Notes under the pieces: model-generated
What the model was told of the DNA's origin: nothing
Seen by the model: the letters and a program-made list of their open reading frames with translations, nothing else
The model's database searches: none
In this document: positions 6,707 to 64,000 of the stretch, one piece after another
Layout: each line of letters opens with the position of its first letter
How positions within the stretch are numbered: position 1 is the stretch's first letter
Made by a program: the position numbers and the translations under genes
DNA from: Calditrichota bacterium
GTDB taxonomy: Bacteria; CLD3
Assembly: GCA_008501735.1 (NCBI GenBank)
Contig: QQUF01000005.1
Span: 8,634-72,633, forward strand
Reading direction: 5' to 3'
DNA length: 64,000 bases

Positions 6707-7267
6707 ATGACTAAAAATTTTACAAAAATTGCTTTTACTGAAAGTGTAAAGAAGGTTCAAGAAAAGTTTGGTTCAAGAGATGCTTACTCAAGGTTTGAGG
6801 AAGTTGAAAAATTTGAACTAACTCAAAATGAGAAATTTTTTATTGCCGAAAGAGACAGTTTTTACTTGGCAACAGTTGGCGAAAACGGATTTCCTTATTT
6901 ACAACATCGAGGAGGTCCAAAAGGCTTTTTGAAAATCCTCGACGATTCAACAATCGGATTCGCAGACTTCAGTGGAAACAAACAATTCATAAGTGTTGGG
7001 AATATCATTTCAACTAAAAAAGCGACTTTGTTTTTGATGGATTACCGTTCAAAAACTCGTCTCAAAATTTGGGCTGAGTCCTCAATCTTAGAACTTAGTG
7101 AAAATCCTGAGCTTTTGGAAAAACTTAGACCTAAAGATTACAAAGCGAATGTTGAACGAATGATTATTTTTAGAATTGTTGGCTACGACTGGAATTGTCC
7201 TCAGCACATTACTGAACGATATTCTTTAGAGGAATTAGAAATGCTTGGTAAAAAATTTGAAAAGTAG
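6707..7267 (+). CDS. Pyridoxamine 5'-phosphate oxidase-family (PPOX) flavoprotein
   Basis: 186 aa, cytosolic. The split-barrel FMN-binding fold shows as FFIAERDSFYLATVGENGFPYLQHRGGPKGF (about 43-73, described here as a strand, a G-x-P-x-x-x-H/R-G-G turn and a strand), then IGFADFSGNKQFIS and TRLKIWAES. Members with this HRGG variant are annotated as PPOX-class FMN-binding oxidoreductases of unknown substrate; it is not PdxH. Confidence 0.8.
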   Translation: MTKNFTKIAFTESVKKVQEKFGSRDAYSRFEEVEKFELTQNEKFFIAERDSFYLATVGENGFPYLQHRGGPKGFLKILDDSTIGFADFSGNKQFISVGNIISTKKATLFLMDYRSKTRLKIWAESSILELSENPELLEKLRPKDYKANVERMIIFRIVGYDWNCPQHITERYSLEELEMLGKKFEK

Positions 7268-9626: not shown

Positions 9627-10661
9627 ATGGAGATTTCAACAATGGATTTAATCCGTTTAGGTTGGAACGAATTTTTCAAAAAAGAAAGCACTGGAAGCAA
9701 TACTTTTTATGGTAGAATTTCAGTGGAACATAAAAGCCTTTACAAAATATTTACCGAGTTCGGCGAAATGAAAGCCGTAGTTACAGGAAAAATGAAATTT
9801 AATTCCCAAAGTTCTGTTGATTTACCTGTTGTTGGAGATTGGGTAGTTTTTACAAAAGAAAATGACTTGGCAGTAATTCAAGAAGTCTTGCCAAGAAAGA
9901 GTAAATTCTCAAGAAAAGTCGCAGGAATCGAAACTTCTGAACAAATTGTTGCTTCAAACATTGACCACCTTTTCATAGTTACTTCTTTAAATCAAGACTT
10001 GAATTTGAGAAGGTTAGAAAGATATTTGACACTTGCTTGGGACGGAGGAGCGAATCCTGTCATAATTTTAAGTAAAGCAGACTTAGCCGATGATTTGGAC
10101 GAAATAATTACTCAAGTTGAAACAGTTGCTTGGGGAGTTCCAATTCACGTAACTTCATCTTTAGACGACATTGGCTTTGACGAGCTTGGTGAATACTTTG
10201 AAGGTAATAAAACGATTGCAGTTTTGGGTTCTTCAGGAGTTGGAAAGTCAACTTTGATAAATAAGTTGCTTGGAAACGAAGTTCTTAAAGTCAGTGAAAT
10301 TGGTGAGTACAAAGACAAAGGGAAACACACTACAACACATCGTGAATTACTTTTACTCCCAAAAGGTGGAATCATCATTGATACTCCCGGAATGCGAGAA
10401 ATTCAGATTTGGGAAGGTTCGGAAGGTCTGGAAAAGACTTTTGCTGATGTTGAAGAATTTGCAATGAATTGTAAATTTTCAGATTGCAAACACGAATCTG
10501 AGCCGAATTGTGGAATTAATGAAGCGTTAAGAAATGGTAATTTAGATGAGGCTCGTTTGAAAAGTTACAAAAAGTTGCAACGTGAAATCGCTTACCAAGA
10601 ACGTAAGCAAAACGAAGGTTTACACAAAAATTCCAAGAATCGTTGGAAAGGAATTTGTTAA
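9627..10661 (+). CDS. rsgA: Ribosome small-subunit maturation GTPase RsgA
   Basis: 344 aa. A late 30S assembly GTPase with an N-terminal OB fold (about 28-115), a circularly permuted GTPase domain (G4 LSKAD at 148-152 precedes G1 GSSGVGKS at 201-208; G2 THRE, G3 DTPG at 252-255), and the C-terminal zinc knuckle (Cys282, Cys287, His289, Cys295). All diagnostic parts are present and the length is normal. A second in-frame ATG lies six codons in (MDLIRLG), so the true start is uncertain by 15 bp. Confidence 0.96.
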   Translation: MEISTMDLIRLGWNEFFKKESTGSNTFYGRISVEHKSLYKIFTEFGEMKAVVTGKMKFNSQSSVDLPVVGDWVVFTKENDLAVIQEVLPRKSKFSRKVAGIETSEQIVASNIDHLFIVTSLNQDLNLRRLERYLTLAWDGGANPVIILSKADLADDLDEIITQVETVAWGVPIHVTSSLDDIGFDELGEYFEGNKTIAVLGSSGVGKSTLINKLLGNEVLKVSEIGEYKDKGKHTTTHRELLLLPKGGIIIDTPGMREIQIWEGSEGLEKTFADVEEFAMNCKFSDCKHESEPNCGINEALRNGNLDEARLKSYKKLQREIAYQERKQNEGLHKNSKNRWKGIC

Positions 10662-10702: not shown

Positions 10703-13700
10703 ATTTGAGCAGAAGCATTTTCCTAACCTCTGATTTTTTGCCGATTTCGACTTTGCAGAAGTAAACTCCACTTGAAACTTTAGCATCATTTTCATTTGTT
10801 CCATTCCATTCGACTGTGTGAAAACCTGCTTCTTTGGTTTGATTCAAAAGAGTTTTTACCTTTTGTCCAAGGATGTTAAAGATTGAAACTTTAATTTTAG
10901 TTTGACTTGGGATTTCAAAATTTATTCTTGTCGAAACATTAAATGGGTTTGGAAAGTTTTGGAAGATTTTTATAGAATTTGGAAGAATAATTTCATTTTC
11001 AGTTCCTGGTGTTCCGTTCAAAGTAGAAGCTCTCCAACTGCTTGCTAAAGAATTGTCTAAGTCCGTAGAAATGAGTTCTAAGGTTTTACCACTTCCGTTT
11101 GCTTCTGTTGTCCAAGGGCTTGAAGTTTGGTAAAAAACAGAATCAACTGTCGTTCCTAAAGCATTCGAGAGTTTTAATCTTTCACCTTCATTACTTAGGT
11201 TAAAATTTAAACCTGTTATGAAATTTTGAACGTTAGGGAAATGAGAAGTGAATTTTTGTAAATCTGAAATTAAAACTAAATAGCTTTTTGCGTCTAAAAT
11301 AGTTTGAGGCGGAAAAGTAAAAATATTATTTGAATCTGAATCCGTGAAAGTCCAATTAGAAATGTCAACTTCAAAGTCCTGTGTGTTATAAAATTCAATC
11401 CATTCTCCAACATTAAAACTTTGCGAAGGATTGTAATTAATTTCATTAAAAATAATTAGTTCCGAAGTGTCCAAAAATGGAATTGCTCCAATGTCAATTC
11501 TTGTTCCGTCAACATCAAAAGGACTTTGTGGATTTCCAGAATTTATGCAAGGAGAAGTTGGTAAAAGTTGGAAATTATTTTGATTTGGCTCAATGAATTG
11601 AGGATTTGCAAAAATATTTCCAATTCCTTCTAATTCTTCCAAATCGCTTAAACTGTAGGAAAATTCAAATTCAGAAAGTCCGTCTTTGTAAAAAGTTAGT
11701 GAGTCAGAAAGCGAGAAAATTGAATTTTCAATTTTGGCAAATCCACCACCGAAACCAATATTTTTTTCGAAAGCTGAAAGTGAAATCGCATTTTTATAAA
11801 AGGTGTTGTTAGTAACTTTTATAACGGAACTGTCTTTTGTTGCACAACCAATTCCATTTCTTAAGACTAAATTTCTTTCTAAAATCGCAGTAGATTTTTC
11901 GCCAATTGAGATTCCTTTGTCAAAACAATATTCGATGAAATTATTTTTGATTAAAATGTTTTCGGAATTTTCTCCGATGTCGATTCCGTCATCTTTTGAG
12001 CCGTAAATTGAATTGTTTTCAATTAATCCATTTTCGATTCTGTCAAAATCAATCGCATCGCCGCTTTGAACAATTTGAAATTCACAATCTTTTATTACTG
12101 ACCCAGTAGAGTTTTTGATATTTATAAATTCGCCAAAGTTTGTTGAATCAAAAACGCAGTTTGAAATTTCGATTTGGCTTGAATTTGCGAAAACGGAATT
12201 AGCGTTGTTCTTGAAAGTGGAACTTGAAATTTGAACATTAGAACTTTGAATTGAGACAGCAGAAGGAGAAGTAAAAGCGTCTAAACCTAAGGAAGCATTT
12301 TCGATTTCAACAAAGTTAAAAGTTGAACTTTGAGAGTTGTTAAGTAAAATTGCTCCCCAGTTTTCAGAATTTAATTTATTGATTTTTATAGGTTTTTCAG
12401 GAGTTCCAGAAAAATGAATTTCACCTTCAACGATTAAATTTACTGACTCGTCAAAAAGCAAAGAAACACCTGCTTCAATGTTTAAAATTGCTCCTTCTTT
12501 TATTGTGATGTCTTGGTCTGAGATGTAAGGCGAATTTGCTTCACTAAAAGTTATATTCCCTTCAATTTCTTGCGGAATTTTTGTGCCTTCTTTGATAACA
12601 AAATCATTTCTTGTGTCAAAAGCTTTGATTGTATTTGTTCCGTCAGATGCGTATAAAGTCCAAAAATAATCTCCAGCTTCAAGAGAGTCAGTAGAAAGCG
12701 TAAAGTTCGTCCCTTCAATGTTGTAAATGAATTTCACATCGCTTGTATAATTTCTCAAAGGACTGTATTTCAAAGTGTAAGTTAATTCATCACCATTTGG
12801 GTCGGTTGAAGGAATCCAACTGAAATCAACTTGGTTTACATTTTCTTTAGTGATTTTATTTGCACGAAAAGGTCTTGGGTAGTTTGAAAATTGATTTTGA
12901 AGGAAATTGTATCTGTCATTAATAAAATTTTTGACGTTAGTTACTCCGTCATTCCAATCTGTAATATTTTCAATCAAGTCAGTTGTGTCGTCCAAAATTG
13001 GTTGCTCAAAGGCAATTACCAAAGAATCGATAATTGGAAAAATGTGCTGAGAATTAAAAATCGTGGATTGTAATTCGTTAATTCTATTTTGAATGTCAGA
13101 AAAGATTTGAGGATTAATTAATGCTCTTTGGTGCAGTGGATTATCAGATTCCCAAGTGTTTGAGCCGTGATTGTAAATAAGATTTGAACCATAAACATAA
13201 AAGGATTTGTCCATATCCCAAGGAAGCATAAACCATTTGTTTTCGGCTAAATTATGGTACAAATAATAATTGTGATAGTAAGTGCTTCCATTTGCCAAAA
13301 GGATATTCATCGCAAAAATATTAATCATTTCATCGTAAAAAGTATTTTGAACAAAGAAGTTGTAAAATTCGGAATCGGAAACAAGGTTTACGTCTGACAT
13401 TAATTTTATCAAATCATCTCTAACTGCTTCGTCATTTGTTTTTTTCTCCCAATAGAGAAATGCGTCATCGTAAATACTTAATGTTGCTCCATCTCTTGTT
13501 GCTTTGTAAAGATTGTCGTTTGGATTTAAAATGTTGGATTCCAAAAAATCGTTGTCAATATTTTCAATTCTAATATAAAAGCCCAAATATTCGCCATTGA
13601 GATAAATCTTCGCAGGTTCAGCTTCAAAGCTAATTTGTCCTGATTCACGCATCAAAAGGCTTGAAAGAATACTATTCAAATAACTTTTATCTAAGTAATC

Positions 13701-38704: not shown

Positions 38705-38894
38705 AAAACATATTCTTCATTTTTTGTAAAAATTCTGATTTAAACTAAAGAATTAACTCCTGATTCTAAAGTAATTTTATAAATCAATCTCACAAAAGAC
38801 GAAATATCATCACCAAAACTTTTGCCCTTGTTACAAAAATTGTGAAAGTCATCACAAATGGCTGTTAAAGCTCCTAAAACTTTGATTTTAAAAT

Positions 38895-38909
38895 TGGCAT
38901 ACGGTTTGA
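38895..38909 (+). promoter_or_regulatory. Sigma-54-like promoter of the 611-aa T9SS gene
   Basis: TGGCAT (38895-38900), five bases, then TTGA (38906-38909): the -24/-12 spacing of sigma-54 promoters, with the -12 GC changed to GA. The ATG at 38970 is 61 bp downstream. The short repeat TCATCAC occurs at 38807-38813 and 38849-38855, at distances where activator sites could lie. The rest of 38705-38969 shows no ORF. Confidence 0.45.
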
Positions 38910-38969: not shown

Positions 38970-40805
38970 ATGAAAACTTTAAAACTAAACTCAAAAAGAT
39001 TTTCAAATCTCGTTACTTTAACAAGCCTCGCAACTGCATCAATTTTAACAGTTGGTTTATTAACAAGTGCACAAGCTCAAAGTTCAATTTCATTTCAAAT
39101 CGATAACTTTTTTGGAAATCCTTCTTGTGGACCAGAAATGTTTACCGACCAAAACGGAATCTTAAATCCTGACCCAACTTGCGACCCTTGTGGACCACTT
39201 ACTTTTACAGCTTTTGAACAATTCGGTTACAACAACGGACTTGGTCCTCAAGGTGAAGCAGCAACAACTTCAAGTGTTTCAAATAATAATATGCCAGTTG
39301 CAGCTTTAGCTCCAGCAGACGTTGGAAACGCTTCTTTAATTATTGACCAAACATTTGGACTTTCAAGTTTTGAACACACAGCTGACCAAAATGACCCTGC
39401 AACTTTCGGTTCTTGGGGAGATCACAGACAGTATGTTGGCGGACACGCTTACATAGTTGTTGACGGAGACACAGTTCTTGAAGTTGGAAGCATTACTTTT
39501 GACCTTTGGGTGAATTATCCAGCTCCTTTTGGACAAGGGAATATTTCTTCTGGCTTTGGAATGGGTTATTTATACGGATTAGACGACGACCCAAATTGGG
39601 TTGCTGCTTTAGACCCACAAGGAACGGGGCAAATTAATTTTAACTTAAACTCAATGTCGCCAACTGCGATAGTTTTTCCACCTAACTCACCTTGTCAGAC
39701 CCGTTATGGCTACTACGATGTAAATGTAACAATTAGCCCGAATGCAATTCCAAGAATTGTTGAGTTTGGAGAACTTCCTTTTGGAAATGGTGCTTTGAGT
39801 TTTCAAAATTCACAAGTCGATTTTAATTTTGAAATGGGAGTTGGTGGTGGAGAACAATTTAACCAATTTGATGTGATGGCAATGAGAGTCGAAGATGCTC
39901 CAGACGGAAATTTACCCGAAGGAATTAATTCAATCGAACAAAATCACTTCTGGCACTTAGGCACAACGATGGAAAGTTTTGAAACTGACGTAACTTTTGA
40001 CCTTACTGACATTACTTTAGCAGGAAATCCTTCAAACTATAGAATCTTAAGAAAGCCTGATGGAAGTAATGATTGGCAAATTTTTGGAGACATTTCTCTT
40101 CTAAACGGTGGAACAGAATTACGTGCAAACAATGTTACAGGATTCAGTGATTGGGCAATCGGAGATGTTGGCGACGGAGCTTTACCTGTTGAATTGCAAA
40201 GTTTTGAAGCAAATGTTAACGGTAGAAATGTAGAACTTACTTGGACAACTGCAACTGAAACTGACAATCAAGGATTTGTAGTCGAGCGTTCTTTAGACAG
40301 TGAAAATTTTATCGAAATCGCAAGTTACAAAACAAGCGTAGCTTTGATTGGAAGAGGAACTTCTGCTTCTGAAACTAATTACAAATACACAGATTCAAGA
40401 GTTTCAAATGGTTCAACTTACTACTACAGGCTCGTTGACGTTTCCTACGAAGGGATTAGAAATGAAAACGAAATTATCAAAATTAGTGTCAGAAATGAGA
40501 ATACTGAATCTGAAATCCTAAATCTTGACTACGAATTGAAACAAAATTTCCCTAATCCTTTCAATCCTTCAACTCAAATCAATTTCTCAATCGCAAGAGC
40601 TGGACAAGTAACTCTTAATGTTTACAACGTTTCAGGTCAATTGGTTAAGACTTTAGTAAACAACGCATTTGACAAAGGAAATTACAATGTTGAGTGGAAT
40701 GGGACAAACTCGAATGGTTCGCAAGTTTCAAGTGGAGTTTACCTTTACAAACTCACAACTTCAAACGGATTTTCAGCGACTAAAAAAATGTTCTTAATCA
40801 AATAA
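38970..40805 (+). CDS. Secreted T9SS cargo protein with Fn3-like and sorting domains
   Basis: 611 aa. Signal peptide to about residue 36 (LLTSAQAQ). The N-terminal 390 residues form a domain I do not recognise (Cys-rich opening CGPEMFTDQ, CDPCGP, beta-rich). A Fn3-like module at about 405-510 (LQSFEANVNGRNVELTWTTATETDNQGFVVERS) is followed by the sorting tail (KQNFPNPFNPST, VEWNGTN, VSSGVYLYKL). The Fn3-like module is shared, in diverged form, with the array at 52715-61513. It is single-gene, ends with a clear terminator and probably depends on the upstream sigma-54-like promoter. Confidence 0.82.
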   Translation: MKTLKLNSKRFSNLVTLTSLATASILTVGLLTSAQAQSSISFQIDNFFGNPSCGPEMFTDQNGILNPDPTCDPCGPLTFTAFEQFGYNNGLGPQGEAATTSSVSNNNMPVAALAPADVGNASLIIDQTFGLSSFEHTADQNDPATFGSWGDHRQYVGGHAYIVVDGDTVLEVGSITFDLWVNYPAPFGQGNISSGFGMGYLYGLDDDPNWVAALDPQGTGQINFNLNSMSPTAIVFPPNSPCQTRYGYYDVNVTISPNAIPRIVEFGELPFGNGALSFQNSQVDFNFEMGVGGGEQFNQFDVMAMRVEDAPDGNLPEGINSIEQNHFWHLGTTMESFETDVTFDLTDITLAGNPSNYRILRKPDGSNDWQIFGDISLLNGGTELRANNVTGFSDWAIGDVGDGALPVELQSFEANVNGRNVELTWTTATETDNQGFVVERSLDSENFIEIASYKTSVALIGRGTSASETNYKYTDSRVSNGSTYYYRLVDVSYEGIRNENEIIKISVRNENTESEILNLDYELKQNFPNPFNPSTQINFSIARAGQVTLNVYNVSGQLVKTLVNNAFDKGNYNVEWNGTNSNGSQVSSGVYLYKLTTSNGFSATKKMFLIK

Positions 40806-52714: not shown

Positions 52715-55054
52715 TTATTTGAGTAAAATCATTTTGTTTGTTTTAGTGAAAGTTCCTGCTTGGAGTTTGTAAAAATAAGTTCCATTTGAAACAGACTTTC
52801 CATTTTCGTCTGTTCCGTTCCAAACAACATTGTGTGAACCTTCTTTTTGGAGTCCACTTGTTAGTTCTTTTACAAATTCACCTTTTATGTTGTAAATCTT
52901 AAGATTAACTCTTGTGTCTTTAGCAATTTGGTAAGAAATTGTTGTGCTTGGGTTGAATGGATTGGGGAAGTTTTGAGCTAATTTGTATTCTTTCTTAGAA
53001 ATTACTTCTTCTTCACCAAGAACAAATTTTACAGCTTGGGATTGAGTTTCGTGTTTAGTTTCAAGCCCATTAGTTTCAACATCAGAAATGTAGTAAGTGT
53101 AAGTTTCGCCATTACGAAATTCTGAATTATCAACAAACGAGTAGTTGTTTTGGAAGGTTGAGTTTCCTTGTCCTAAAAGTTTATTATGACTTTTGTAAGA
53201 AGCGATTTGAATGAAGTTTCCGTTACCTGTTTTTCTATAAACATTAAAGCCTTCATTTTCAGTTTCAGAAGCAGTTGTCCAAGTAAGTTGAATTGAGTTT
53301 TCAATTTGATGAGCAGAGAAAGAATCAAGTTCAATTGCAAGAGGAGCATCTGAATTTCCCGATGCAATTGTGTTTAAAATTAAGTTGTCGTGGTAACCAT
53401 CGCTATTACCTCCTGCATCTTTTCTACTTTGCATTCTGATTCTAATTGTTCTTGTTCCGACTGGAGCAAGTCTTGTATCTGTAATTTGAGTCCAAGTTTG
53501 TCCTGGGTGTAAGAAACCAGAGTCGTAAGTATCAAGAACTGTTGTATTTGTTGCATCTCTGTATTCAAGAATAATTTTAGATTCATCAGACCCATTAAAG
53601 TCAGCTACATAACTGCTCCAATAAAAAGTTGCAGTTCCAGCATCAATTGAATCACTGAATTCGGAGACATCAATATCTTGTTGTAGCTCGGCAGTCCCTG
53701 TAGTTGCACCAGCATAAAAGTAATTAGAGCCAGTTTGAGCAGAAGGATTTGAGGTTCTTTGAGTCCAGTTTGTTCCACTAATTTCAGTCCAACTTGGAAT
53801 CTCTCCACCAACAAGAGCATCTTCACAACCTCCGTTTGAAACTAAATTTTTAGTCAAATAAATATAAGCTGAACCTGATGCACTTCCTGCATCATCATCT
53901 CCTTGAGCTCCAGTAATTGCATAGTTTCCACTAATTGAAACTGAAAAACCAAATCTATCACTTGAAGCATCATCATTTGCAGTCAATTTAGATTGTTGAC
54001 TCCAAGATGTTCCACTTCTATTAAAAATATAAGCAGAACCTGAATTACTTCCTGCATCATCATCTCCTTGAGCTCCAACAATCGCATAATCTCCACTTAT
54101 TGAAACGGACCAACCGAATTGGTCAGCTGTTGCCGCATCACTTGCAGTTAACTTTGTTTGTTGTGACCAACTTACTCCACTTCTATTAAAAATGTAGGCT
54201 GCACCTGAAGAGCTTCCTGCATCATCATCTTCTCGAGCTCCAACAACTGCATAATCTCCACTAATTGAAACGGACCAACCAAAAAAGTCAGCTGCCGCCG
54301 CATCACTTGCAGTAAGTTTTGCTTGTTGGCTCCAAGATGTTCCTGTTCTGTGAAAGATATAAGCAGAACCTGAACCATTTCCTCCATCATCATCTCCAGA
54401 AGCTCCAATAATTACATAATCGCCACTTATAGAAACTGATTGACCAAAATTATCACCTGAAGTCGCATCATTTGCGTTGAATTTAGCTTGCTGTGTCCAA
54501 GAAGTTCCGCTTCTATGAAAAATGTAAACTGAACCACCTATTATTCCATTAAGAATGGTGCTTATAACTGCGTAATCTCCATCTATTGAAACCGAATAAC
54601 CAAATTGGTCATTTTCTTCAGCATCGCTCGCATTTAGTTTTGCTTGTTGTGTCCAAGAAGTTCCGCTTCTATGAAAAATGTAAGCTGAGCCTGTTAAATC
54701 TGCCCCATCATCATCTTGAATTGCTGAAACAATCGCATAATCTCCGCTTATAGATACTGAATATCCAAAAGTATCTTCAATAGCTGCATCATTTGCAGTC
54801 AATTTTGTTTGCTGACTCCATGAGTTTCCATTGCGGAAGTAAATGTAAGCTGAGCCTGAGGCATTTCCAGCATCATCATCAAAACGAGCTCCAACAACTG
54901 CATAATTTCCAGATACAGAAACTGAATTACCAAAAGAGTCACCAGCTGCTGCATCATTAGAAACAATTTTTTCTTCGTATTCTGCAAAGCAATTCGTGAA
55001 AATCCCGAAGCTAAGTGCTAAGGTTGGTAAAAGTGTTTTAGTTAGTTTTTTCAT
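52715..55054 (-). CDS. Seven-unit FG-GAP-like propeller protein, T9SS cargo (array gene 4)
   Basis: 779 aa. Signal peptide 1-24 (NCFA). Seven FG-GAP-like units of about 55 residues (about 25-405) with core FGxSVSISGDYAIVGA, an acid loop DDDAGxxSG and SAYIFxRSGTSWSQQ; the third unit is irregular. A jelly-roll/CBM-like domain follows (about 410-560; GCEDALVGGEIPSW, SRKDAGGNSDGYHDNL), then a Fn3-like module (about 570-680; QLTWTTASETENEGFNVYRK) and the sorting tail. Likely a cell-surface seven-bladed propeller with Ca-binding loops, for adhesion or glycan binding; no enzymatic motif. Last gene of the array. Confidence 0.88.
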   Translation of the reverse strand: MKKLTKTLLPTLALSFGIFTNCFAEYEEKIVSNDAAAGDSFGNSVSVSGNYAVVGARFDDDAGNASGSAYIYFRNGNSWSQQTKLTANDAAIEDTFGYSVSISGDYAIVSAIQDDDGADLTGSAYIFHRSGTSWTQQAKLNASDAEENDQFGYSVSIDGDYAVISTILNGIIGGSVYIFHRSGTSWTQQAKFNANDATSGDNFGQSVSISGDYVIIGASGDDDGGNGSGSAYIFHRTGTSWSQQAKLTASDAAAADFFGWSVSISGDYAVVGAREDDDAGSSSGAAYIFNRSGVSWSQQTKLTASDAATADQFGWSVSISGDYAIVGAQGDDDAGSNSGSAYIFNRSGTSWSQQSKLTANDDASSDRFGFSVSISGNYAITGAQGDDDAGSASGSAYIYLTKNLVSNGGCEDALVGGEIPSWTEISGTNWTQRTSNPSAQTGSNYFYAGATTGTAELQQDIDVSEFSDSIDAGTATFYWSSYVADFNGSDESKIILEYRDATNTTVLDTYDSGFLHPGQTWTQITDTRLAPVGTRTIRIRMQSRKDAGGNSDGYHDNLILNTIASGNSDAPLAIELDSFSAHQIENSIQLTWTTASETENEGFNVYRKTGNGNFIQIASYKSHNKLLGQGNSTFQNNYSFVDNSEFRNGETYTYYISDVETNGLETKHETQSQAVKFVLGEEEVISKKEYKLAQNFPNPFNPSTTISYQIAKDTRVNLKIYNIKGEFVKELTSGLQKEGSHNVVWNGTDENGKSVSNGTYFYKLQAGTFTKTNKMILLK

Positions 55055-55145: not shown

Positions 55146-56612
55146 TTATTTGAGTAAAATCATTTTGTTAGTTTGGGTGAAAGTTCCAGATGTGAGTTTG
55201 TAGAAGTAAGTTCCACTTGAAACTTGATTTCCAAAGCTGTCTGTTCCGTTCCAAACTACATTGTGTGAGCCTTCGTAACGGAAACCATTTGTCAGTTCTT
55301 TGACAAATTCGCCTTTTTCATTGTAAATTTTGAGGATAACTTTTGCGTCATTTGCTAAATTGTAAGAAATTGTTGTGCTTGGATTAAATGGGTTAGGGAA
55401 GTTTTGAGCTAATTCAAATCTTTTTGCTTTCTCAGTTTTGATTTCAAAAAGAACGCTTTGTGCAGATTTTTCGTGCTTAGTTTCAAGTCCGTTTGTTTCA
55501 ACGTCTGAAATTAAGTAAGTGTAGAACTCACCACTTTGTAATTTTGAGTTATCTGTAAAATTATAAAAAGTCTCTACAGAAGTGTTGCCTTGACCTTGAA
55601 GTTCATTATGAGATTTGTACGAAGCAATTTTTGCAAAATTTCCACTTCCTACTTTTCTATAAACGTTAAAACCTTCATTTTCAGTTTCTGAAGCTGTTGC
55701 CCAAGAAAGTTGAATTGAGTTTTCAATTTGGCGAGCAGAGAAAGAATTTAATTCTACTGAAAGAGGTTGATCAACTGCATTATCAATTTCAAGTGCAAAT
55801 GGAGTAATTAAGCCTGTTGTTAAAACATCTTCAACGTTTGAACCGTCTAAGTTTGCTCTTTGGATTTTGTCGGTTCCATCATCAGTCCAATAAATTTTTG
55901 AATTCGCTTTGTCAATTGCTAATCCTTGTGGGCTATCTAATCCGGTTACTAAATCTTCTATACTTGAACCGTCAAAATTTGCTCTTTGAAGTTTATTCGT
56001 TCCATCATCAAGCCAATAAATTTTTGAATTAAAAACATCTAAAGCTAATTCTGTTGGTGTGTTCAATCCTGATGTAATAATATCCTCAACATTTGAACCA
56101 TCTAAACCTGCTCTTTGGATTCTATTTGATGAATTATCAGCCCAATAAACTTTTGAATTTACAACATCAACTTCAACTGCAAGAGGTACTGCAATACCTG
56201 TAACTATGTCTTCAACATTAGAACCATCTAAATCTGCTCTATGGACTTTATCGGTTCCAATATCAACCCAATAAATTTTTGAGTTTGTAGCATCAACTGC
56301 AATATTTCTCGGAAAATTTAATCCGGTAATAATATCTTCGACATTTGAACCATCAAAATCTGCTCTTTTGATTTTATCTATCCCAAAATCAATCCAATAC
56401 ATTTTGGAGTTAATAACATCTAAACTGATTCCAGATGGTGCAGATAAACCAGTTGTAACTAGATCTTCGACATTAGAACCATCAAGGTCTGCTCTTTGGA
56501 TTTTACTTGTCCCAAAATCTGTAAAATACATTTTCGCAGCATAAGTATTTGATGAAAGCGACATTCCTAAAGCAAGTGTTAAAACTGACTTTGTAAGTGT
56601 TAATATTTTCAT
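55146..56612 (-). CDS. YWTD six-blade propeller protein, T9SS cargo (array gene 3)
   Basis: 488 aa. Signal peptide about 1-25. Exactly six YWTD-type repeats of 42-43 residues (NSKIYWVDIGTDKVHRADLDG, then SNVEDIVTG; about 26-283), as in LDL-receptor six-bladed propellers. No CBM-like domain follows; instead the Fn3-like module (LNSFSARQIENSIQLSWATASETENEG) and sorting tail used by its neighbours. It is as if the ligand-facing head were swapped onto a common stalk. Expected at the surface or released. Confidence 0.88.
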   Translation of the reverse strand: MKILTLTKSVLTLALGMSLSSNTYAAKMYFTDFGTSKIQRADLDGSNVEDLVTTGLSAPSGISLDVINSKMYWIDFGIDKIKRADFDGSNVEDIITGLNFPRNIAVDATNSKIYWVDIGTDKVHRADLDGSNVEDIVTGIAVPLAVEVDVVNSKVYWADNSSNRIQRAGLDGSNVEDIITSGLNTPTELALDVFNSKIYWLDDGTNKLQRANFDGSSIEDLVTGLDSPQGLAIDKANSKIYWTDDGTDKIQRANLDGSNVEDVLTTGLITPFALEIDNAVDQPLSVELNSFSARQIENSIQLSWATASETENEGFNVYRKVGSGNFAKIASYKSHNELQGQGNTSVETFYNFTDNSKLQSGEFYTYLISDVETNGLETKHEKSAQSVLFEIKTEKAKRFELAQNFPNPFNPSTTISYNLANDAKVILKIYNEKGEFVKELTNGFRYEGSHNVVWNGTDSFGNQVSSGTYFYKLTSGTFTQTNKMILLK

Positions 56613-56706: not shown

Positions 56707-59061
56707 TTATTTGAGTAAAATCATTTTGTTAGTTTGTGTGAAAGTTCCAGATGTGAGTTTGTAGAAGTAAGTTCCACTTGAGACTTGATTTCCATTTTGG
56801 TCAGTTCCGTTCCAATTCACACTGTGTGAGCCTTTGTTCATTTTCTCATTCACAAGTTCTTTCACAAGTTGACCGTTTAAATTGTAAACTTGGAGTTTGA
56901 CTCTTTGGTCTTTTTTGATTTGGAAATTGATTGTTGTGCTTGGATTGAAAGGGTTTGGGAAGTTCTGAGCTAATTCGTAGTCAAGTTTTGTTTGAGTAAC
57001 TTCTCCGTCAAGAATGAATTTTACACTTTGAGCAGATTCTTCGTGTTTAGTCTCAACTCCATTAGTTTCGACATCAGAAATGTAGTAAGTGTAAGTTTCG
57101 CCATTACGAAATTCTGAGTTATCAACAAAGGAATAGCTGTTTGAAGTTGTTGAGTTTAAAGCTCCAACAAGCTCTGAGTTACTTTTGAAAGAAGCGATTT
57201 GAAAGTAGTTTCCGTTTCCGATTTTTCTGTAAACGTTAAAACCTTCGTTTTCAGTTTCAGAAGCAGTTGACCAATTGAGTTGAATTGAGTTTTCAATTTG
57301 ACGAGCTGAAAAAGAATCAAGTTCAATTGCAAGAGGAGTATCTGAATTAGTATCAGAAGTTGTGAACAAAACTAAATTATCGTGGTTTCCATTTGAATCT
57401 GTCCCTTTATCTCTTCTACTTTGCATTCTAATTCTAATTGTTCTTGTTCCTACAGGAGCAAGTCTTGTGTCAGTGATTTCTGTCCAAGTGAGTCCTGGGT
57501 GAAGGAATCCAGAATCATAAGTATCAAGAACAGTTGTATTTGCTGCATCTCTGTATTCGAGAATAATTTTTGCCTCATCTGAACCTTCAAAATCACTCGC
57601 CCAACTACTCCAATTGAAAGTTGCAGTTCCAGCATCAATTGAATCACTGTAATCAGAGACATCAACATCTTGCTGAAGTTCAGCAGTTCCTGATGCAGCA
57701 CCTGCGAAGAAGAAAAAACTTCCTTCTTCTGGGGCAGGATCAAAATCTTTTTGAGTCCAGTTTGTTCCACTGATTTCAGTCCAACTTGGAATCTCTCCAC
57801 CAACAAGTGCCTCTTCACAGCTATGATTTTGAACTAAATTATTTTCTCCAAATATGTAAGCTGAACCTGAATCAGTTCCATCGTCATCATCTCCAAAAGA
57901 GCCAGCTACCATAAAGTCTCCGCTAATTGAAACAGAACCACCAAACCCATCGCTTGCAGCTGCATCATTAGCAGTAAATTTTGCTTGTTGGCTCCAAGAA
58001 GTTAGACTTCTACTAAACAAATAAGCTGAACCTGAACCTGCTCCATCGTCGTCATCTCCAATGGACCCAATAATCACATAATTACCACTAATCGAAACTG
58101 TTTGACCAAAAAAATCATCTGCTGCTGAATCATTTGCAGTTAGTTTTGCTTGTTGGTTCCAAGAGATTCCAGTTCTGTTAAAAACATATGCCGAACCAGA
58201 ATTACTTCCTCCATCATCATCTTGATGAGTTCCAACAACTACATAATCTCCCTCAATTGAAACTGAATAACCAAAATGGTCACTTGCATCTAAATCATTT
58301 GAAACCAATTTTGCTTGTTGGTTCCACGAAGTTCCAGTTCTGTTAAAAATATATGCCGAACCAGAAAAGTTTCCACCATCATCATCTAGTAAAGCTCCAA
58401 CAACTGCATATTCTCCATCTATTGAAACTGAATAACCAAAATAGTCAACAGCAGCCAAATCATTTGAAGCTAATTTTGCTTGTTGTGTCCACGAAGTTCC
58501 AGTTCTGTGAAAAACATATGCTGAACCTGCAAAGTTTGCTACATCATCATCACGATAAGCTCCAACAATTGCATAATCTCCATCTATTGAAACTGAAAAT
58601 CCAAATTCGTCACCTGCTGTAGCATCATTAGCAGTGAGTTTAGCTTGTTGGCTCCAAGAGGTTCCACTTCTTTTAAAAATGTATGCTGAGCCTGACTTAT
58701 TTCCATCATCATCATCTAAATAAGCTCCAATAATTGCATATTCTCCATCTATTGAAACTGAAACTCCAAAATAGTCACCCGGAACACCATCATTTGCGAT
58801 TATTTTTGCTTGTTGAGTCCAAGTGTTACCACTTCGAATATATATGTAAGCTGAACCTTGGTAGTACATTGCACCTAAAACATTGTCTCCTTCGGCTCCA
58901 ACAATTGCGTAATCTCCGTCTATTGATACAGAGGATCCAAATGCATCTGATATATCAGCATCATTTGCAACGATTTTTACTTCATTTTCTGCAAAGCAGC
59001 TTGTAAAGATTCCAAAGCTAAGTGCTAAGGTCGGGATAAGTGTCTTTGTGAAAGTTTTCAT
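56707..59061 (-). CDS. Seven-unit FG-GAP-like propeller protein, T9SS cargo (array gene 2)
   Basis: 784 aa. Same layout as its neighbours: signal peptide 1-24, seven FG-GAP-like units (25-410; SVSIDGDYAIVGAYRDDD type), CBM-like domain with EDALVGGEIPSW-like EEALVGGEIPSW, Fn3-like module, sorting tail (ELAQNFPNPFNPSTT, VSSGTYFYK). Its final 190 bp are nearly identical to those of 59156-61513. The acid loops (DDDGGNFSG) suggest Ca2+ binding. No catalytic motif seen. Confidence 0.88.
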   Translation of the reverse strand: MKTFTKTLIPTLALSFGIFTSCFAENEVKIVANDADISDAFGSSVSIDGDYAIVGAEGDNVLGAMYYQGSAYIYIRSGNTWTQQAKIIANDGVPGDYFGVSVSIDGEYAIIGAYLDDDDGNKSGSAYIFKRSGTSWSQQAKLTANDATAGDEFGFSVSIDGDYAIVGAYRDDDVANFAGSAYVFHRTGTSWTQQAKLASNDLAAVDYFGYSVSIDGEYAVVGALLDDDGGNFSGSAYIFNRTGTSWNQQAKLVSNDLDASDHFGYSVSIEGDYVVVGTHQDDDGGSNSGSAYVFNRTGISWNQQAKLTANDSAADDFFGQTVSISGNYVIIGSIGDDDDGAGSGSAYLFSRSLTSWSQQAKFTANDAAASDGFGGSVSISGDFMVAGSFGDDDDGTDSGSAYIFGENNLVQNHSCEEALVGGEIPSWTEISGTNWTQKDFDPAPEEGSFFFFAGAASGTAELQQDVDVSDYSDSIDAGTATFNWSSWASDFEGSDEAKIILEYRDAANTTVLDTYDSGFLHPGLTWTEITDTRLAPVGTRTIRIRMQSRRDKGTDSNGNHDNLVLFTTSDTNSDTPLAIELDSFSARQIENSIQLNWSTASETENEGFNVYRKIGNGNYFQIASFKSNSELVGALNSTTSNSYSFVDNSEFRNGETYTYYISDVETNGVETKHEESAQSVKFILDGEVTQTKLDYELAQNFPNPFNPSTTINFQIKKDQRVKLQVYNLNGQLVKELVNEKMNKGSHSVNWNGTDQNGNQVSSGTYFYKLTSGTFTQTNKMILLK

Positions 59062-59092: not shown

Positions 59093-59133
59093 GTTTAAAA
59101 AGAGCGGAAAACCCGCTTGGCGTGAATTCCGCT
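59093..59133 (-). terminator. Terminator between array genes
   Basis: AGCGGAA/TTCCGCT (59103-59109 and 59127-59133) with an inner GCC/GGC-rich part, followed on the minus strand by CTTTTTAAAC. It lies 23 bp after the stop of 59156-61513, so transcription of the array is stepped down at each junction. Confidence 0.75.
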
Positions 59134-59155: not shown

Positions 59156-61513
59156 TTATTTGAGTAAAATCATTTTGTTAGTTTGTGTGAAAGTTCCTGC
59201 TGAAATCTTGTAGAAGTAAGTGCCACTAGAGACTTGATTTCCATTTTGGTCAGTTCCGTTCCAATTCACACTGTGTGAACCTTTGTTCATTTTCTCATTC
59301 ACAAGTTCTTTCACAAGTTGACCGTTTAAATTGTAAACTTGGAGTTTGACTCTTTGGTCTTTTTTGATTTGGAAATTGATTGTTGTGCTTGGATTGAAAG
59401 GGTTTGGAAAGTTCTGAGCTAATTCGTAGTCAAGTTTTGTTTGGGTAACTTCTCCGTCAAGAATGAATTTTACACTTTGAGAATTGTCTTCGTGCTTTGT
59501 TTCAAGACCATTTGTTTCAACATCTGAAATGTAGTAAGTGTAAGTTTCTCCGCTACGAAGTTCAGAATCATCTACAAAAGTGTAGTTGTTTGAGAACGTC
59601 GAGTTTAAAGCTCCTACAAGTTCTGAATTTCTTTTGTAAGAAGCGATTTGAATAAAATTAGAATCACTTATTTTTCTGTAAACATTAAAACCTTCGTTTT
59701 CAGTTTCAGAAGCAGTTGTCCAAGAAAGTTGAATTGAGTTTTCAATTTGACGAGCTGTGAAAGAATCAAGTTCAACTGCAAGGGGTTGGTCAGCATCAGA
59801 AGTTGCAAAAGTTAAAAGTGAAAGATTGTCGTGGTAACCATCGCTATTACCTCCTGCATCTTTTCTACTTTGCATTCTGATTCTAACTGTTCTTGTTCCA
59901 ACAGGAGCAAGTCTTGTGTCAGTAACTTGAGTCCAAGTTTGTCCTGGGTGTAAGAAACCAGAGTCGTAAGTATCAAGAACTGTTGTATTTGTTGCATCTC
60001 TGTATTCGAGAATAATTTTAGATTCGTCAGAACCATTGAAATCAGCTACAAAGCTACTCCAAACGAATGTCGCTTCACCTGCATCAATGCTAATTGAATG
60101 TGAAGAGACATCAATATCTTGTTGTAGTTCAGCAGTTCCTGTAGTTGCTCCAGCATAAAAGTAATCTGAGCCTTCTTGAGCAGAAGGGTTCGAATTTCTT
60201 TGAGTCCAATTCGTTCCACTAATTTCAGTCCAATTTGGAATCTCACCACCAACAAGTGCATCTTCACAACCTGCATTTGAAACTAAGTTTCCTGAATTTG
60301 TAGTATCGTAAACATAAGCTGAACCTGAATCAGTTCCACCGTCATCATCAAAATAAGCTCCAGCAATTGTATTATTTCCTCTTATAGAAACTGAAATGCC
60401 AAATTTATCGCTTGCTCCAGCATCGCTTGCAGTCAGTTTTGCTTGTTGTATCCACGAAGTTCCACTTCTGCTAAAAACATAAGCAGAACCTGAATCAGCT
60501 TCTCCATCATTATCCATGTAAGCTCCAATAACTGTATAATCTCCATCTATTGAAACTGACTTACCAAAAAAATCAAGTCCTCCTGCATCACTTGCAGTTA
60601 ATTTATCTTGTTGTGTCCAAGAAGTTCCACTTCTATGAAAAATATAAGCGGAACCTGAAGCATTTCCACCATCATCATCATGATCAGCCCCTATAACTGC
60701 ATAATCTCCACTAATTGAAACCGAATGACCAAAAAAGTCACTTTCCGCAGCATCACTTGCAGTTAGTTTAGCTTGTTGTGTCCACGAAGTTCCACTTCTA
60801 TGAAAGATATAAGCGGAACCTGAATTACTTCCTGCGTCGTCATTTCTATCAGCACCAATAACAGTATAATCTCCGTTAATTGATACTGACCTCCCAAAAA
60901 TATCACCTGCTGCTGCATCACTTGCAGTTAATTTGGCTTGTTGGCTCCAAGAAGTTCCACTTCTATGAAAGATATAAGCTGCACCTGAACCACCTCCTCC
61001 ATCATCATCTCCATTAGCACCAACAACTACATAATCTCCATCAATTGAGACTGAAGAACTAAAATTATCGCCAGCTGCCGCATCATTTGCAGTTAGTTTT
61101 GCTTCTTGACTCCAAGAAGCTCCACTTCTTTTGAAAACATAAGATGAACCTGATGAACTTCCTCCATCATCATCTCCATTTGCTCCAACAACTGCATAAT
61201 CTCCACTAATTGAAACTGAAAGACCAAATTTGTCATCTGCCGCTGCATCATTTGCAGTTATCTTAGCTTGCTGTGTCCACGAAGTTCCACTTTTATGAAA
61301 GATATAAGCTGAACCTGAGGAATTTCCACCATCATCATCTTGATAAGCTCCAACGATAGCATAATCTCCATCAATTGAAACTGAATAACCAAAAAAGTCA
61401 CTTGCTGCATCATCATTAGCAACAATTTTATGTTCAGTTTGTGCAAAGCAACTTGTAAAGATTCCAAAGCTGAGTGCTAAGGTCGGAATAAGTGTTTTTG
61501 TAAAAGTTTGCAT
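59156..61513 (-). CDS. Seven-unit FG-GAP-like propeller protein, T9SS cargo (array gene 1)
   Basis: 785 aa, first gene behind the sigma-54-like promoter. Signal peptide 1-24 (SCFAQ); seven FG-GAP-like units (about 25-405); CBM-like domain (GCEDALVGGEIPNW, 415-565); Fn3-like module (SFTARQIENSIQLSWTTA); sorting tail. Every unit keeps the SVSI-x-GDY strand and most keep a DDDGG acidic loop. Opposite-strand open frames inside the repeats arise from the tandem codons and are not genes. Start ATG 61513 has an AGGA-like site (TAGTAGGAC) upstream. Confidence 0.9.
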   Translation of the reverse strand: MQTFTKTLIPTLALSFGIFTSCFAQTEHKIVANDDAASDFFGYSVSIDGDYAIVGAYQDDDGGNSSGSAYIFHKSGTSWTQQAKITANDAAADDKFGLSVSISGDYAVVGANGDDDGGSSSGSSYVFKRSGASWSQEAKLTANDAAAGDNFSSSVSIDGDYVVVGANGDDDGGGGSGAAYIFHRSGTSWSQQAKLTASDAAAGDIFGRSVSINGDYTVIGADRNDDAGSNSGSAYIFHRSGTSWTQQAKLTASDAAESDFFGHSVSISGDYAVIGADHDDDGGNASGSAYIFHRSGTSWTQQDKLTASDAGGLDFFGKSVSIDGDYTVIGAYMDNDGEADSGSAYVFSRSGTSWIQQAKLTASDAGASDKFGISVSIRGNNTIAGAYFDDDGGTDSGSAYVYDTTNSGNLVSNAGCEDALVGGEIPNWTEISGTNWTQRNSNPSAQEGSDYFYAGATTGTAELQQDIDVSSHSISIDAGEATFVWSSFVADFNGSDESKIILEYRDATNTTVLDTYDSGFLHPGQTWTQVTDTRLAPVGTRTVRIRMQSRKDAGGNSDGYHDNLSLLTFATSDADQPLAVELDSFTARQIENSIQLSWTTASETENEGFNVYRKISDSNFIQIASYKRNSELVGALNSTFSNNYTFVDDSELRSGETYTYYISDVETNGLETKHEDNSQSVKFILDGEVTQTKLDYELAQNFPNPFNPSTTINFQIKKDQRVKLQVYNLNGQLVKELVNEKMNKGSHSVNWNGTDQNGNQVSSGTYFYKISAGTFTQTNKMILLK

Positions 61514-61569
61514 TTGTTTAGTCCTACTAAATTTTGTTTAGAGTTTAATTTCTTTTTCTAAACTCTTAG

Positions 61570-61584
61570 TCAACTGCTGTGCCA
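61570..61584 (-). promoter_or_regulatory. Sigma-54-like promoter of the propeller array
   Basis: Minus strand: TGGCAC (61584-61579), five bases, TTGA (61573-61570). This matches the consensus TGGCAC-N5-TTGC at nine of ten fixed bases. Start site predicted near 61558, giving a leader of about 45 nt that contains a GTTTAGA/TCTAAAC hairpin (61536-61563). Same -12 variant (TTGA) as at 38895-38909. Confidence 0.6.
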
Positions 61585-61648
61585 AATGAGAAAATGCATT
61601 CTAATGCTTGAAATAGAGGTTTTGGGGATTTATGGTTTTTAAGAAGTT

Positions 61649-61801
61649 GTATGATTTATCGAACAGTAGTTGCTTTGTAAAATGAAACTAAGTGCAAAAA
61701 TGTAGTTTGGAAGTACTCAAGAAAGGCTTTGTATGAAATATCGTACAGGATTTTAACTGTGCGATTTTTCATACACTAATTCTGTACGTTTTTTAGAACA
61801 G
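61649..61801. promoter_or_regulatory. Repeated palindromic activator-site candidates
   Basis: GTATGAWWTATCGWACAG occurs at 61649-61666 and 61731-61748, and in inverted form at 61757-61774. The latter two form an inverted repeat with 16 of 18 bases paired across 8 nt. A fourth, CTGTACG...GAACAG, is at 61782-61801. They lie about 90-245 bp upstream of the predicted start site, the range of enhancer sites for sigma-54 activators, and the activator gene is next door. The remaining bases of 61514-61960 hold no ORF. Confidence 0.55.
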
Positions 61802-61860
61802 TTTGAGTTTTTGGAATTTTTGTTAGGAGTGAGTTTGAAAAGTGGTTTTGAGGTCTAAAC

Positions 61861-61951
61861 GTTGCAACAGCTTTGAGCCGTTGCATAGAATTATATTCTT
61901 AAAAGAAAAAGTTTTTGATTTTCGATAGTAACGTTTCAAGCGTTACTATCG
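61861..61951. repeat. Two dispersed-type hairpins after the activator gene
   Basis: TGCAAC-AGC/GCCGTTGCA around TTTGA (about 61863-61886), and perfect 11-bp arms CGATAGTAACG/CGTTACTATCG around TTTCAAG (61923-61933, 61941-61951). The second lies 10 bp after the activator stop, so it may terminate it, though there is no T-run. Loop contents (CTTTGA, TTTCAAG) match the loop class seen at 6655, 7278, 9525 and 47437. Confidence 0.6.
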
Positions 61952-61960
61952 ATTCGCACT

Positions 61961-64000
61961 TTAGAGATTGTGTTTTTTCAAAAGTCGGTAGAGCTTTTCT
62001 CTTTTTACATCAAGTGTAATTGCTGTTTTAGACTTGTTGCCGCTGTTCTTCTTTAATTCTGAAGCAAGTATTTTTTTCATTACGAAGTCAAGTTTCTCGT
62101 CTAAAGTATCTCCAGCGAAATCCTCGGATTCAGATGTTCTAATTTGTTTCGTCGGTTGGTTCTTTTGTACAAAACCCAACTCTTTGGGGTTTATTGGTAA
62201 ATTATCTTTTTTCATTACAAGTCCTTTGGCAATGGTATTTTCTAATTCTCTTACATTGCCAGACCAGTTCTGTTCTTGCAAAAGAATTAAGGAATCAGGT
62301 GTAAGTCCTGCAACTTTCTTGCCAGCATCTTTGCAAAGTTTTTCTAAAAAGAAATTTGCAAGTAAAGGAATGTCTTCTGATCGCTCTCGTAAAGGTGGAA
62401 CTTCGATTTTTAAAACATTCAAGCGGTGGTAAAGGTCTTCTCTGAAATTTCCTTTTTTAACTTCATTCTCTAAATTTTTGTGAGTTGCCACAATCACTCG
62501 TAAATCAATTTTTACAGCCTTTTCACCACCGACTCTGGTAATCTCTTTTTCCTGAATTGCTCTAAGGAACTTCGCTTGCAGTTCTAAAGACAATTCTCCG
62601 ATTTCATCAAGGAAAAGTGTTCCGCCATTTGAAAGTTCAAACTTTCCTCTTTTGACTGAAATTGCTCCTGTGAATGAGCCTTTCTCGTGTCCGAAGAGTT
62701 CGCTTTCGGCTAAGTCTTTTGGAATTGTTGCACAATTTAAAACAACGAATGGTTTTGAATTTCGATTACTGAGTTTGTGCAAAGCTCCTGCAACAAGTTC
62801 TTTTCCTGTTCCTGTTTCTCCGTGAATGTAAACAGGGAAATTTACTTTTGAAGCATTTTCGATTGCACTGTAAAGCTCTTGCATTTTCAGACTGTTCCCA
62901 ACGAAAATTCCAAGCCCACGAATTTCTGATTCTATTTTAAGTTTGAGTGCTTCTTGTTGCCTCAAAAGAATTGGTGAAAGAACTTTTGCAATGTCTTCAA
63001 CTTGCTTCAAATCTTCTTTGCTAAAAAATCCGAATTTTATTTTTGTCCTTTGGAGATACAAAGCTCCACAAATTTTTCCGCTAATTTCCAAAGGAACTGC
63101 GATTACTGAAAGAAATGCTTTGCCAACTACACTTAGATTTTCTTGGAATTGCTCCGTGTGAGTTGCGTCTTCAATGAGAATTGCCTTTTGGTTTTCGATT
63201 GCCTTAGAAAGAATTCCTGAACTGTAATCAATTTCTTCGTCTTGTAGTTTTGAAGAAATCGCACAGGTTTCAAATTCATTTGTTTTTTCATTTTTTAAAA
63301 TTATTTGACAACCGTTGGCTTTGTATTCGTCTGTTAAAAACCCAAGAATTTCAGAAAAGGCTGTTTCGGGATTCATCCATTTTACTAAGGACTTTAAAAG
63401 GTCAGGACTAACTGTTTTCGGTCGAAAAACCAATGTTTTGAGTTTTTCGGCTCTAATTTTATACAGTAATACATTACTCTCTTTGAAAAGTAACTCAGCT
63501 TTTTCAATAGCTTTTTCTTTGTAGGAATCAATTTCATCTAAACTCAAAACCTTTGTACCTAAGTCATAGCTTTTGATTCCAAGTTTTGTGATGTAAAAAA
63601 GTGCATCAGAAGTAATATTTTCCTGTTTTGATTTTTCTGAAACCATTTTGAAAAAATGAATAGCCTCTTCGTGCTTTCCTTCTTCAAATTTAAGTAGATT
63701 TGTTAAGTTGTTAATTTTGTAATAAAAAACTTCAAAATCTCCATTCTCCGTAATTTCCAAAGATTTTTGAACCAATCTTTTAACTTCTTTAAACTCCCCA
63801 TTTTCATATAAAAGTTCTGCTTTTTCGAGAGAAAATTGAGCTAAGTAATGACTATGGTTTAATCCCTCTGCAAGTGAAATAGCTTTGTCAAAACACTCCA
63901 ATGATTTTGCATAATTTTTCTTAGAACTATATATTTTGGCTTCGTAAAAAATACAGAATGAAAGTCCATTTTTATTTTGCAATTCTTCATAGATTTCTCT
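61961..64000 (-). CDS. Sigma-54-dependent activator with TPR and GAF sensors, start outside the window
   Basis: At least 679 codons in the window; the frame is open to base 64000 without an ATG or stop, so the N-terminus is missing. TPR-like helices (YAKSLECFDKAISLAEG, FEEGKHEEAIHFFKM) at the visible N-terminus, GAF domain (about 215-350; KAILIEDATHTEQF, AFLSVIAVPLEISG), AAA+ domain with GETGTGKE, canonical GSFTGA loop, FLDEIGE and RxxR fingers, then a short HTH (TAITLDVKREKLYRLLKKHNL). No receiver domain, so it is not phospho-controlled. It lies upstream of the propeller array, on the same strand. Confidence 0.93.
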   Translation of the reverse strand, partial: REIYEELQNKNGLSFCIFYEAKIYSSKKNYAKSLECFDKAISLAEGLNHSHYLAQFSLEKAELLYENGEFKEVKRLVQKSLEITENGDFEVFYYKINNLTNLLKFEEGKHEEAIHFFKMVSEKSKQENITSDALFYITKLGIKSYDLGTKVLSLDEIDSYKEKAIEKAELLFKESNVLLYKIRAEKLKTLVFRPKTVSPDLLKSLVKWMNPETAFSEILGFLTDEYKANGCQIILKNEKTNEFETCAISSKLQDEEIDYSSGILSKAIENQKAILIEDATHTEQFQENLSVVGKAFLSVIAVPLEISGKICGALYLQRTKIKFGFFSKEDLKQVEDIAKVLSPILLRQQEALKLKIESEIRGLGIFVGNSLKMQELYSAIENASKVNFPVYIHGETGTGKELVAGALHKLSNRNSKPFVVLNCATIPKDLAESELFGHEKGSFTGAISVKRGKFELSNGGTLFLDEIGELSLELQAKFLRAIQEKEITRVGGEKAVKIDLRVIVATHKNLENEVKKGNFREDLYHRLNVLKIEVPPLRERSEDIPLLANFFLEKLCKDAGKKVAGLTPDSLILLQEQNWSGNVRELENTIAKGLVMKKDNLPINPKELGFVQKNQPTKQIRTSESEDFAGDTLDEKLDFVMKKILASELKKNSGNKSKTAITLDVKREKLYRLLKKHNL

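Follow-up and report, generated by a model that had tools for sequence, protein, structure and literature searches.

Giant predicted sigma-54 activators with private palindromes beside genes for T9SS-tailed propeller proteins: an apparently multiplied regulatory cassette in a Calditrichota genome

Palindromic sites lying between a gene for a sigma-54 activator and genes for propeller proteins raise the question of whether the activator switches on its neighbors through these sites or whether the sites serve some other regulator. The first-pass annotation of the window (the whole 64,000-nucleotide stretch analyzed here) proposed a circuit running from the activator through the palindromes and a sigma-54 promoter to propellers exported by the type IX secretion system (T9SS). 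Our computations established the anatomy of this module, its repetition at about twelve loci, the confinement of three operators to their own modules and a match between operators and the helix-turn-helix (HTH) domains of the activators, all of which support that proposal. We therefore regard it as likely that the window carries one cassette of a multiplied family, in which a giant activator would act through private palindromes to switch on the adjacent propeller genes. The features of the module are as follows.

L047:3-3254 (contig C47), minus strand: N-terminal kinase-AAA_16-TPR part of the activator (Pfam Pkinase, AAA_16)
61961-64000, minus strand: C-terminal part of the activator, with the end of TPR, GAF, sigma-54 AAA+ with GSFTGA, and HTH (Pfam)
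61922-61952, minus strand: intrinsic-terminator-like hairpin after the activator gene (93% complementary, 1-nt loop, then an A/T-rich tail)
61783-61800, minus strand: operator copy 1, TGTTCTAAAAAACGTACA (11/14, the weakest; centre 209 bp from the -24 GG)
61758-61775, minus strand: operator copy 2, TGTATGAAAAATCGCACA (12/14; centre 184 bp from the -24 GG)
61730-61747, minus strand: operator copy 3, TGTACGATATTTCATACA (13/14; centre 156 bp from the -24 GG)
61648-61665, minus strand: operator copy 4, promoter-proximal, TGTTCGATAAATCATACA (12/14; centre 74 bp from the -24 GG)
61570-61584, minus strand: predicted sigma-54 promoter TGGCAC-N5-TTGA, predicted transcript start near 61558
59156-61513, minus strand: array gene 1, 785 aa, seven FG-GAP_2 repeats, T9SS type A tail (Pfam, AlphaFold2)
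56707-59061, minus strand: array gene 2, FG-GAP_2 propeller, T9SS tail (Pfam; 94-bp gap)
55146-56612, minus strand: array gene 3, Ldl_recept_b (YWTD) propeller, T9SS tail (Pfam; 94-bp gap)
52715-55054, minus strand: array gene 4, FG-GAP_2 propeller, T9SS tail (Pfam; 91-bp gap)

The three near-identical 18-bp sites and the fourth site that had been noticed between activator and array are present, and they fit an 18-bp dyad, TGTACGA-N4-TCGTACA, in four copies (61648-61800), a result matched by none of 100 dinucleotide shuffles. GTATGAWWTATCGWACAG occurs exactly at 61649-61666 and 61731-61748 (plus strand) and, with two mismatches, on the opposite strand at 61757-61774; these three matches upstream of the array compare with a shuffle mean of 0.25, and 0/100 shuffles reached three. 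When the 4.14-Mb genome was searched for the site, as had been suggested, all three full matches to GTATGANNNATCGNACAG lay upstream of the window array; no other site was within one mismatch, the next best having two.

The promoter reported downstream of these sites was found on the minus strand as TGGCACAGCAGTTGA (61584-61570), 70 bp ahead of the array gene, whose start at 61513 was confirmed. Like most of its sister promoters, it has TTGA at -12 where TTGC is the textbook form, a departure that counts against the proposed circuit. Absence of rpoN, which would have spoken against the circuit, does not apply here, as the genome has a single rpoN with an intact RpoN box (ARRTVNKYREQ). The pattern TGGCAY-N5-T(T/A)(G/A) was present in 14/14 array-upstream regions tested (shuffle mean 0.16) and the strict form TTGGCAY-N5-TTG in 12 of the 14 (shuffle mean 0.013), although these shuffle counts overstate independence because the regions tested had already been inspected when the broad promoter expression and several of the operators were defined. 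Genome-wide, the strict form has 51 sites, versus 17 for a reversed control. Together, the promoter and the class of the activator suggest that the arrays depend on sigma-54. Operator geometry is alike across modules despite differing operator sequences: most modules have an operator centre at 66-100 bp and another at 122-171 bp from the -24 GG, often with a further one at 184-258 bp. Elsewhere in the window, another T9SS cargo gene (38970-40805), which has no adjoining giant activator, is preceded at a distance of about 60 bp by TTGGCATACGGTTTG (38894-38908, plus strand).

The activator had been described as a protein with TPR, GAF and GSFTGA, and all three are present; however, the window holds only its C-terminal 679 residues, and that description omitted the kinase and AAA_16 domains, owing to the contig break, as well as the membership of a multiplied family. 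The end of the window is the end of its contig (C10), and the last 29 bp of C10 are the first 29 bp of C47, a string that is unique among the loci fetched. Joining the two contigs gives an uninterrupted frame of 1,754 aa, a length close to that of the paralogs, in the order Ser/Thr kinase, AAA_16, TPR, GAF, sigma-54 AAA+ and HTH. A chimera was also considered, and since the 29-bp overlap is shorter than the 127 bp shared by two other contig ends, we treat the join that yields the full activator as probable. By domain tests the protein is assigned to the bacterial enhancer-binding proteins: it matches PF00158 over profile positions 2-168 of 168 (E=2e-68), with Walker A and B motifs reading GETGTGKE and LFLDEI and the loop reading KGSFTGA (GAFTGA, GSFTGA or GAFSGA in most paralogs). 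Pfam HTH_8, scored in 16/24 family members, fell below threshold on the window protein, though the latter aligned with members that score it. Of the motifs expected in an active Hanks-type Ser/Thr kinase (the Lys of VAIK, HRD and DFG), the array-linked giants keep the ATP lysine (ALK) and HRDLKPAN, and DFG reads DFD.

The AlphaFold2 model of array gene 1 has 28 strands in residues 26-403, where pLDDT is mostly high, and low confidence in much of the linker region; its top Foldseek matches in the PDB are integrin alpha chains (E about 1e-19). We therefore interpret the modeled fold as a seven-bladed, integrin-type FG-GAP propeller of seven four-stranded blades. The cargo tail scored 41.7 bits against Por_Secre_tail (cut-off 23), and SprA of the T9SS machinery is present in the genome (SprA_N, E=7e-38); export of the propellers is read from this tail, and they would be attached to the cell surface. 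Array gene 2 has no operators of its own and is probably in one operon with array gene 1, and array genes 3 and 4 are predicted to belong to the same operon, which would be transcribed from the promoter ahead of array gene 1. A terminator-like hairpin was seen between array genes 1 and 2 (59103-59117, minus strand); if real, it would lower the expression of the arrays beyond it. Two further giant-activator loci have very large MAM-domain proteins as cargo, one of which has no T9SS tail in Pfam.

This genome appears to carry the regulatory cassette in at least twelve copies, of which the window module is one. Strong PF00158 domains number 37, and about 20 of these lie within open frames 1,100-1,800 residues long; among 24 aligned family members Pkinase was found in 20, AAA_16 in 19, TPR in 22 and GAF in 19. 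Mean identity among modules was lowest for TPR (0.23), followed by HTH (0.38), AAA+ (0.60) and kinase (0.62), which portrays the giants as combining a variable input (TPR), a constant engine (kinase and AAA+) and a variable address (HTH). The long activator also occurs in relatives of the same family and class, whereas FG-GAP arrays were found in 0/10 relatives; the kinase-activators are thus older, and the arrays and the expansion of the cassette are specific to the host lineage. The full cassette pattern comes essentially from one genome, although in a genome of the same family (G001) a TTTTGGCACATTACTTGAAA promoter and a TGCCTTG-N3-CAAGGCA dyad follow one giant activator (L095) and lie ahead of genes for other proteins.

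In the tandem clusters (C47-C10 and C24) the modules might form a cascade, in which one activator turns on its array and the next activator, and so on, producing an ordered surface program. The order activator-array-activator-arrays-activator-arrays, with all genes on one strand and 111-136 bp of spacing ahead of each following activator, would fit such an arrangement. However, a hairpin resembling a terminator (identified by eye) lies in the 136 bp that precede the window activator on C47, and isolated modules exist (C5, C13 and C50), so that we consider a cascade unlikely and favor separate control of each array by its own activator.

Operators of the modules were sought de novo by a spaced-dyad search, as fixed 16-mer windows miss odd-length palindromes. 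The array-upstream regions contain 2-5 copies of a palindrome private to the module, and in 8 of the 16 regions 3' of or beside activators a private repeated dyad exceeded 100/100 shuffles; further array promoters paired to an activator also beat shuffles.

Window: TGTACGA-N4-TCGTACA (0/100 shuffles)
C47_mid: TAGTCA-N3-TGACTA (0/100 shuffles)
C24_A: TGTAACA-N3-TGTTACA (0/100 shuffles)
C13: TGGCTCT-N5-AGAGCCA (0/100 shuffles)
C1_end: TTAGGC-N5-GCCTAA (0/100 shuffles)
C5: GTTACAA-N-TTGTAAC (0/100 shuffles)
C38_3p: AACGTAAC-N6-GTTACGTT (0/100 shuffles)
C55: TTTCCTTATAAGGAAA (0/100 shuffles)
C50: GACACAATTTGTGTC (from an array whose activator lies elsewhere in the module)
C1_start: TGTAAGGAATTCCTTACA (from an array whose activator lies elsewhere in the module)
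C38 regulon: TGTACTG-N4-CAGTACA (from arrays whose activator lies elsewhere in the module; before five tandem arrays, each with its own promoter)
C24_B: GGGTCTA-N3 (weak, 22/100 shuffles)

When the same dyad test was applied to 48 other intergenic regions, one passed, which proved to be that of the fifth C38 array, leaving 0/47 true controls. No convincing dyad was found at four giant-activator loci with a promoter-like site (C47_mid2, C48_L055, C48_L043 and C32_L040). In a genome-wide search for the window, C38 and C5 operators, sites with 0-1 mismatch occurred only in the module to which each belongs; a mobile element or REP-like repeat was rejected as an identity for these three, as their close matches are confined in this way. 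At L044:11709-12101, a giant activator with an HTH similar to the NNKRLDRLL family has at its 3' end two GGCGATTCGCC-type dyads that resemble the C1_end operators; no sigma-54 promoter was seen there.

Similarity between operators tracked that between HTHs across 12 modules (Mantel r=0.62, p=5e-5), and did so when AAA+ was controlled for (partial Mantel r=0.61, p=5e-5), whereas r was lower for kinase (0.20), AAA_16 (0.26), TPR (0.22), GAF (0.02) and AAA+ (0.28); the modules are related by duplication, and both the shuffles and the Mantel tests control for kinship only in part. By eye, HTHs ending in ..KLYRLLKKHN pair with TGTA-N10-TACA (window, C1_start and C38 regulon), those ending in ..RTQVHRIL with an ACAAWTTGT core (C5, C50 and C24_A), and NNKRLDRLLKKH HTHs with TAGTCA and TTAGGC sites (C47_mid and C1_end). 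The operators of C50 were predicted from its HTH to resemble those of C5 and C24_A before its upstream DNA was read, and its GACACAATTTGTGTC sites share the ACAAWTTGT core. This co-variation is the main reason for thinking that each activator very probably reads its adjacent operators, and it is from co-variation that we infer DNA binding.

Adjacency alone would be no proof of pairing, since duplicated blocks carry neighbors along, and the palindromes could in principle serve a different, unlinked regulator or repressor, the activator being adjacent only as part of a duplicated block; the four giant loci without dyads would be compatible with this. However, operators resemble one another in accordance with the HTHs of their modules' activators and scarcely with the other domains of these proteins, and the match holds whether the activator lies upstream (window, C5) or downstream (C50, C1_start) of the array, which makes an unlinked regulator very improbable. 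The idea that the arrays use housekeeping promoters, with the sigma-54-like sites and dyads as relics of duplication, can hardly be credited: sigma-70-like matches do occur, though no more often than in shuffles, whereas every module has retained promoter hexamers and dyads, and the operators have changed jointly with the HTHs, which would not be expected of decay.

In the preferred reading, in which each array is controlled by its adjacent activator, the giant regulator, probably cytoplasmic and composed of kinase, AAA_16 STAND-like NTPase, TPR, GAF, AAA+ and Fis-type HTH, would bind its own palindrome, which is present in 2-5 copies located 66-260 bp ahead of a -24/-12 promoter. Once its sensory part became active, the AAA+ ring would hydrolyze ATP and open the sigma-54 promoter, and the adjoining genes for type IX-exported propeller proteins would be transcribed. 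Because different palindromes match different HTHs, the cassettes would be insulated from one another even though sigma factor, activator engine and promoter type are common to all of them. The putative sensor is the TPR/GAF part, with the divergent TPR region presumably setting the signal. A more tentative extension, which we think rather unlikely, is that duplication has built an insulated sigma-54 repertoire from a constant engine, fast-diverging TPR sensors and HTHs with private operators, and private propeller sets, in which each TPR sensor displays its own integrin-like adhesin, one signal for one surface protein; if true, this would be a recognition repertoire and not merely many regulators. 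Perhaps the TPR sensors read a cognate peptide, surface contact or the MPYK membrane peptides encoded beside several arrays. These small ORFs, of 42-48 residues, most of them starting with MPYK or MSYK and having a charged stretch and one hydrophobic helix, occupy the interval from the sigma-54 promoter to the array in several modules and are absent from the window module.

L114:4473-4604, 7557-7724, 10043-10210 and 6924-7064: MPYK/MSYK-type small ORFs
L046:4776-4922; L045:8354-8482; L047 within 8689-8830 (minus strand): MPYK/MSYK-type small ORFs

The polysaccharide-utilization loci of Bacteroidota each have one hybrid two-component or ECF/anti-sigma regulator, with many paralogous loci per genome. 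The cassettes resemble them in dedicating one regulator to each of many paralogous surface-protein loci and differ in regulator class and sigma factor, the cargo of the Bacteroidota loci being sugar-uptake complexes. With NtrC, NifA and NorR the giants share PF00158, a GAFTGA-type loop (here often GAFSGA), a Fis-type HTH and enhancers upstream of -24/-12 promoters, but their input is an assembly of roughly 1,300 residues comprising kinase, AAA_16, TPR and GAF; all NCBIfam activator equivalogs scored below their cut-offs. The nearest known parallel is the control of PEP-CTERM proteins by sigma-54: their genes have upstream a 17-nt motif, which may be repeated, and about 63 nt further on a -24/-12 element (PMC1569441), and RpoN dependence of one PEP-CTERM gene has been shown experimentally (PMC9850573). 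The cassettes are like the PrsK-PrsR-PrsT system in placing cargo with an export-sorting C-terminus under sigma-54 promoters, with a TPR protein in the circuit. There, however, a single regulator with a single 17-nt motif controls all the cargo of a genome, the sensor is a separate histidine kinase and the targets of PrsR carry PEP-CTERM sorting signals, whereas here many regulators have private palindromes, kinase, TPR and GAF are fused to the activator, and the cargo is predicted to be exported by the T9SS, with Por_Secre_tail or CHU_C tails. The different cargo signal and the score of the PrsR model (TIGR02915, 319.5 bits, below the cut-off of 502.6) rule out a PrsR/PEP-CTERM regulator. Sigma-54 has been described as a controller of the bacterial exterior and of surface-related genes (PMC3162934); that work concerns envelope biosynthesis and precursor transport, has the general theme of sigma-54 and the surface in common with ours, and a search of its text found neither Bacteroidetes nor protein kinase. 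The first-pass annotation was aware of no described system joining these parts, and we likewise found none in the open-access literature searched, nor a description there of kinase-fused sigma-54 activators, alone or paired with T9SS cargo; the kinase-STAND-TPR-GAF-sigma-54 fusions are thus a candidate regulator class.

About twelve paralogous activator-operator pairs, apparently without shared operators, coexist with one sigma factor in one cell. With this natural set, the long-standing question of how insulation arises between duplicated transcription circuits can be put to a direct test, and orthogonal sigma-54 parts might be drawn from it. At the level of promoters, the set also suggests how a T9SS bacterium times the display of particular propeller proteins.

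Several observations concern the history of the modules. Two contigs, at the start of L046 and the end of L041, terminate in an identical 127-bp stretch within the kinase domains of different activators; the kinase halves are therefore nearly identical while the HTHs and operators differ, which we take as a sign of domain exchange. A stand-alone activator of 334 residues (L060:5341-6345), consisting of AAA+ and HTH only and 60% identical to the window activator, follows an array whose promoter has TGTAAGG-N4-CCTTACA sites; this truncated form is possibly still functional. Two neighboring C38 arrays have upstream regions (L114:9593-10222 and 12092-12721) that are identical as far as shown, pointing to recent tandem duplication or gene conversion. 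Finally, L052:8442-9374 and L060:6346-6795 share an intergenic repeat around CTCCTCCTT..AAGGAGGAG and GCTTCGCTTGAATTT, which is perhaps a miniature mobile element.
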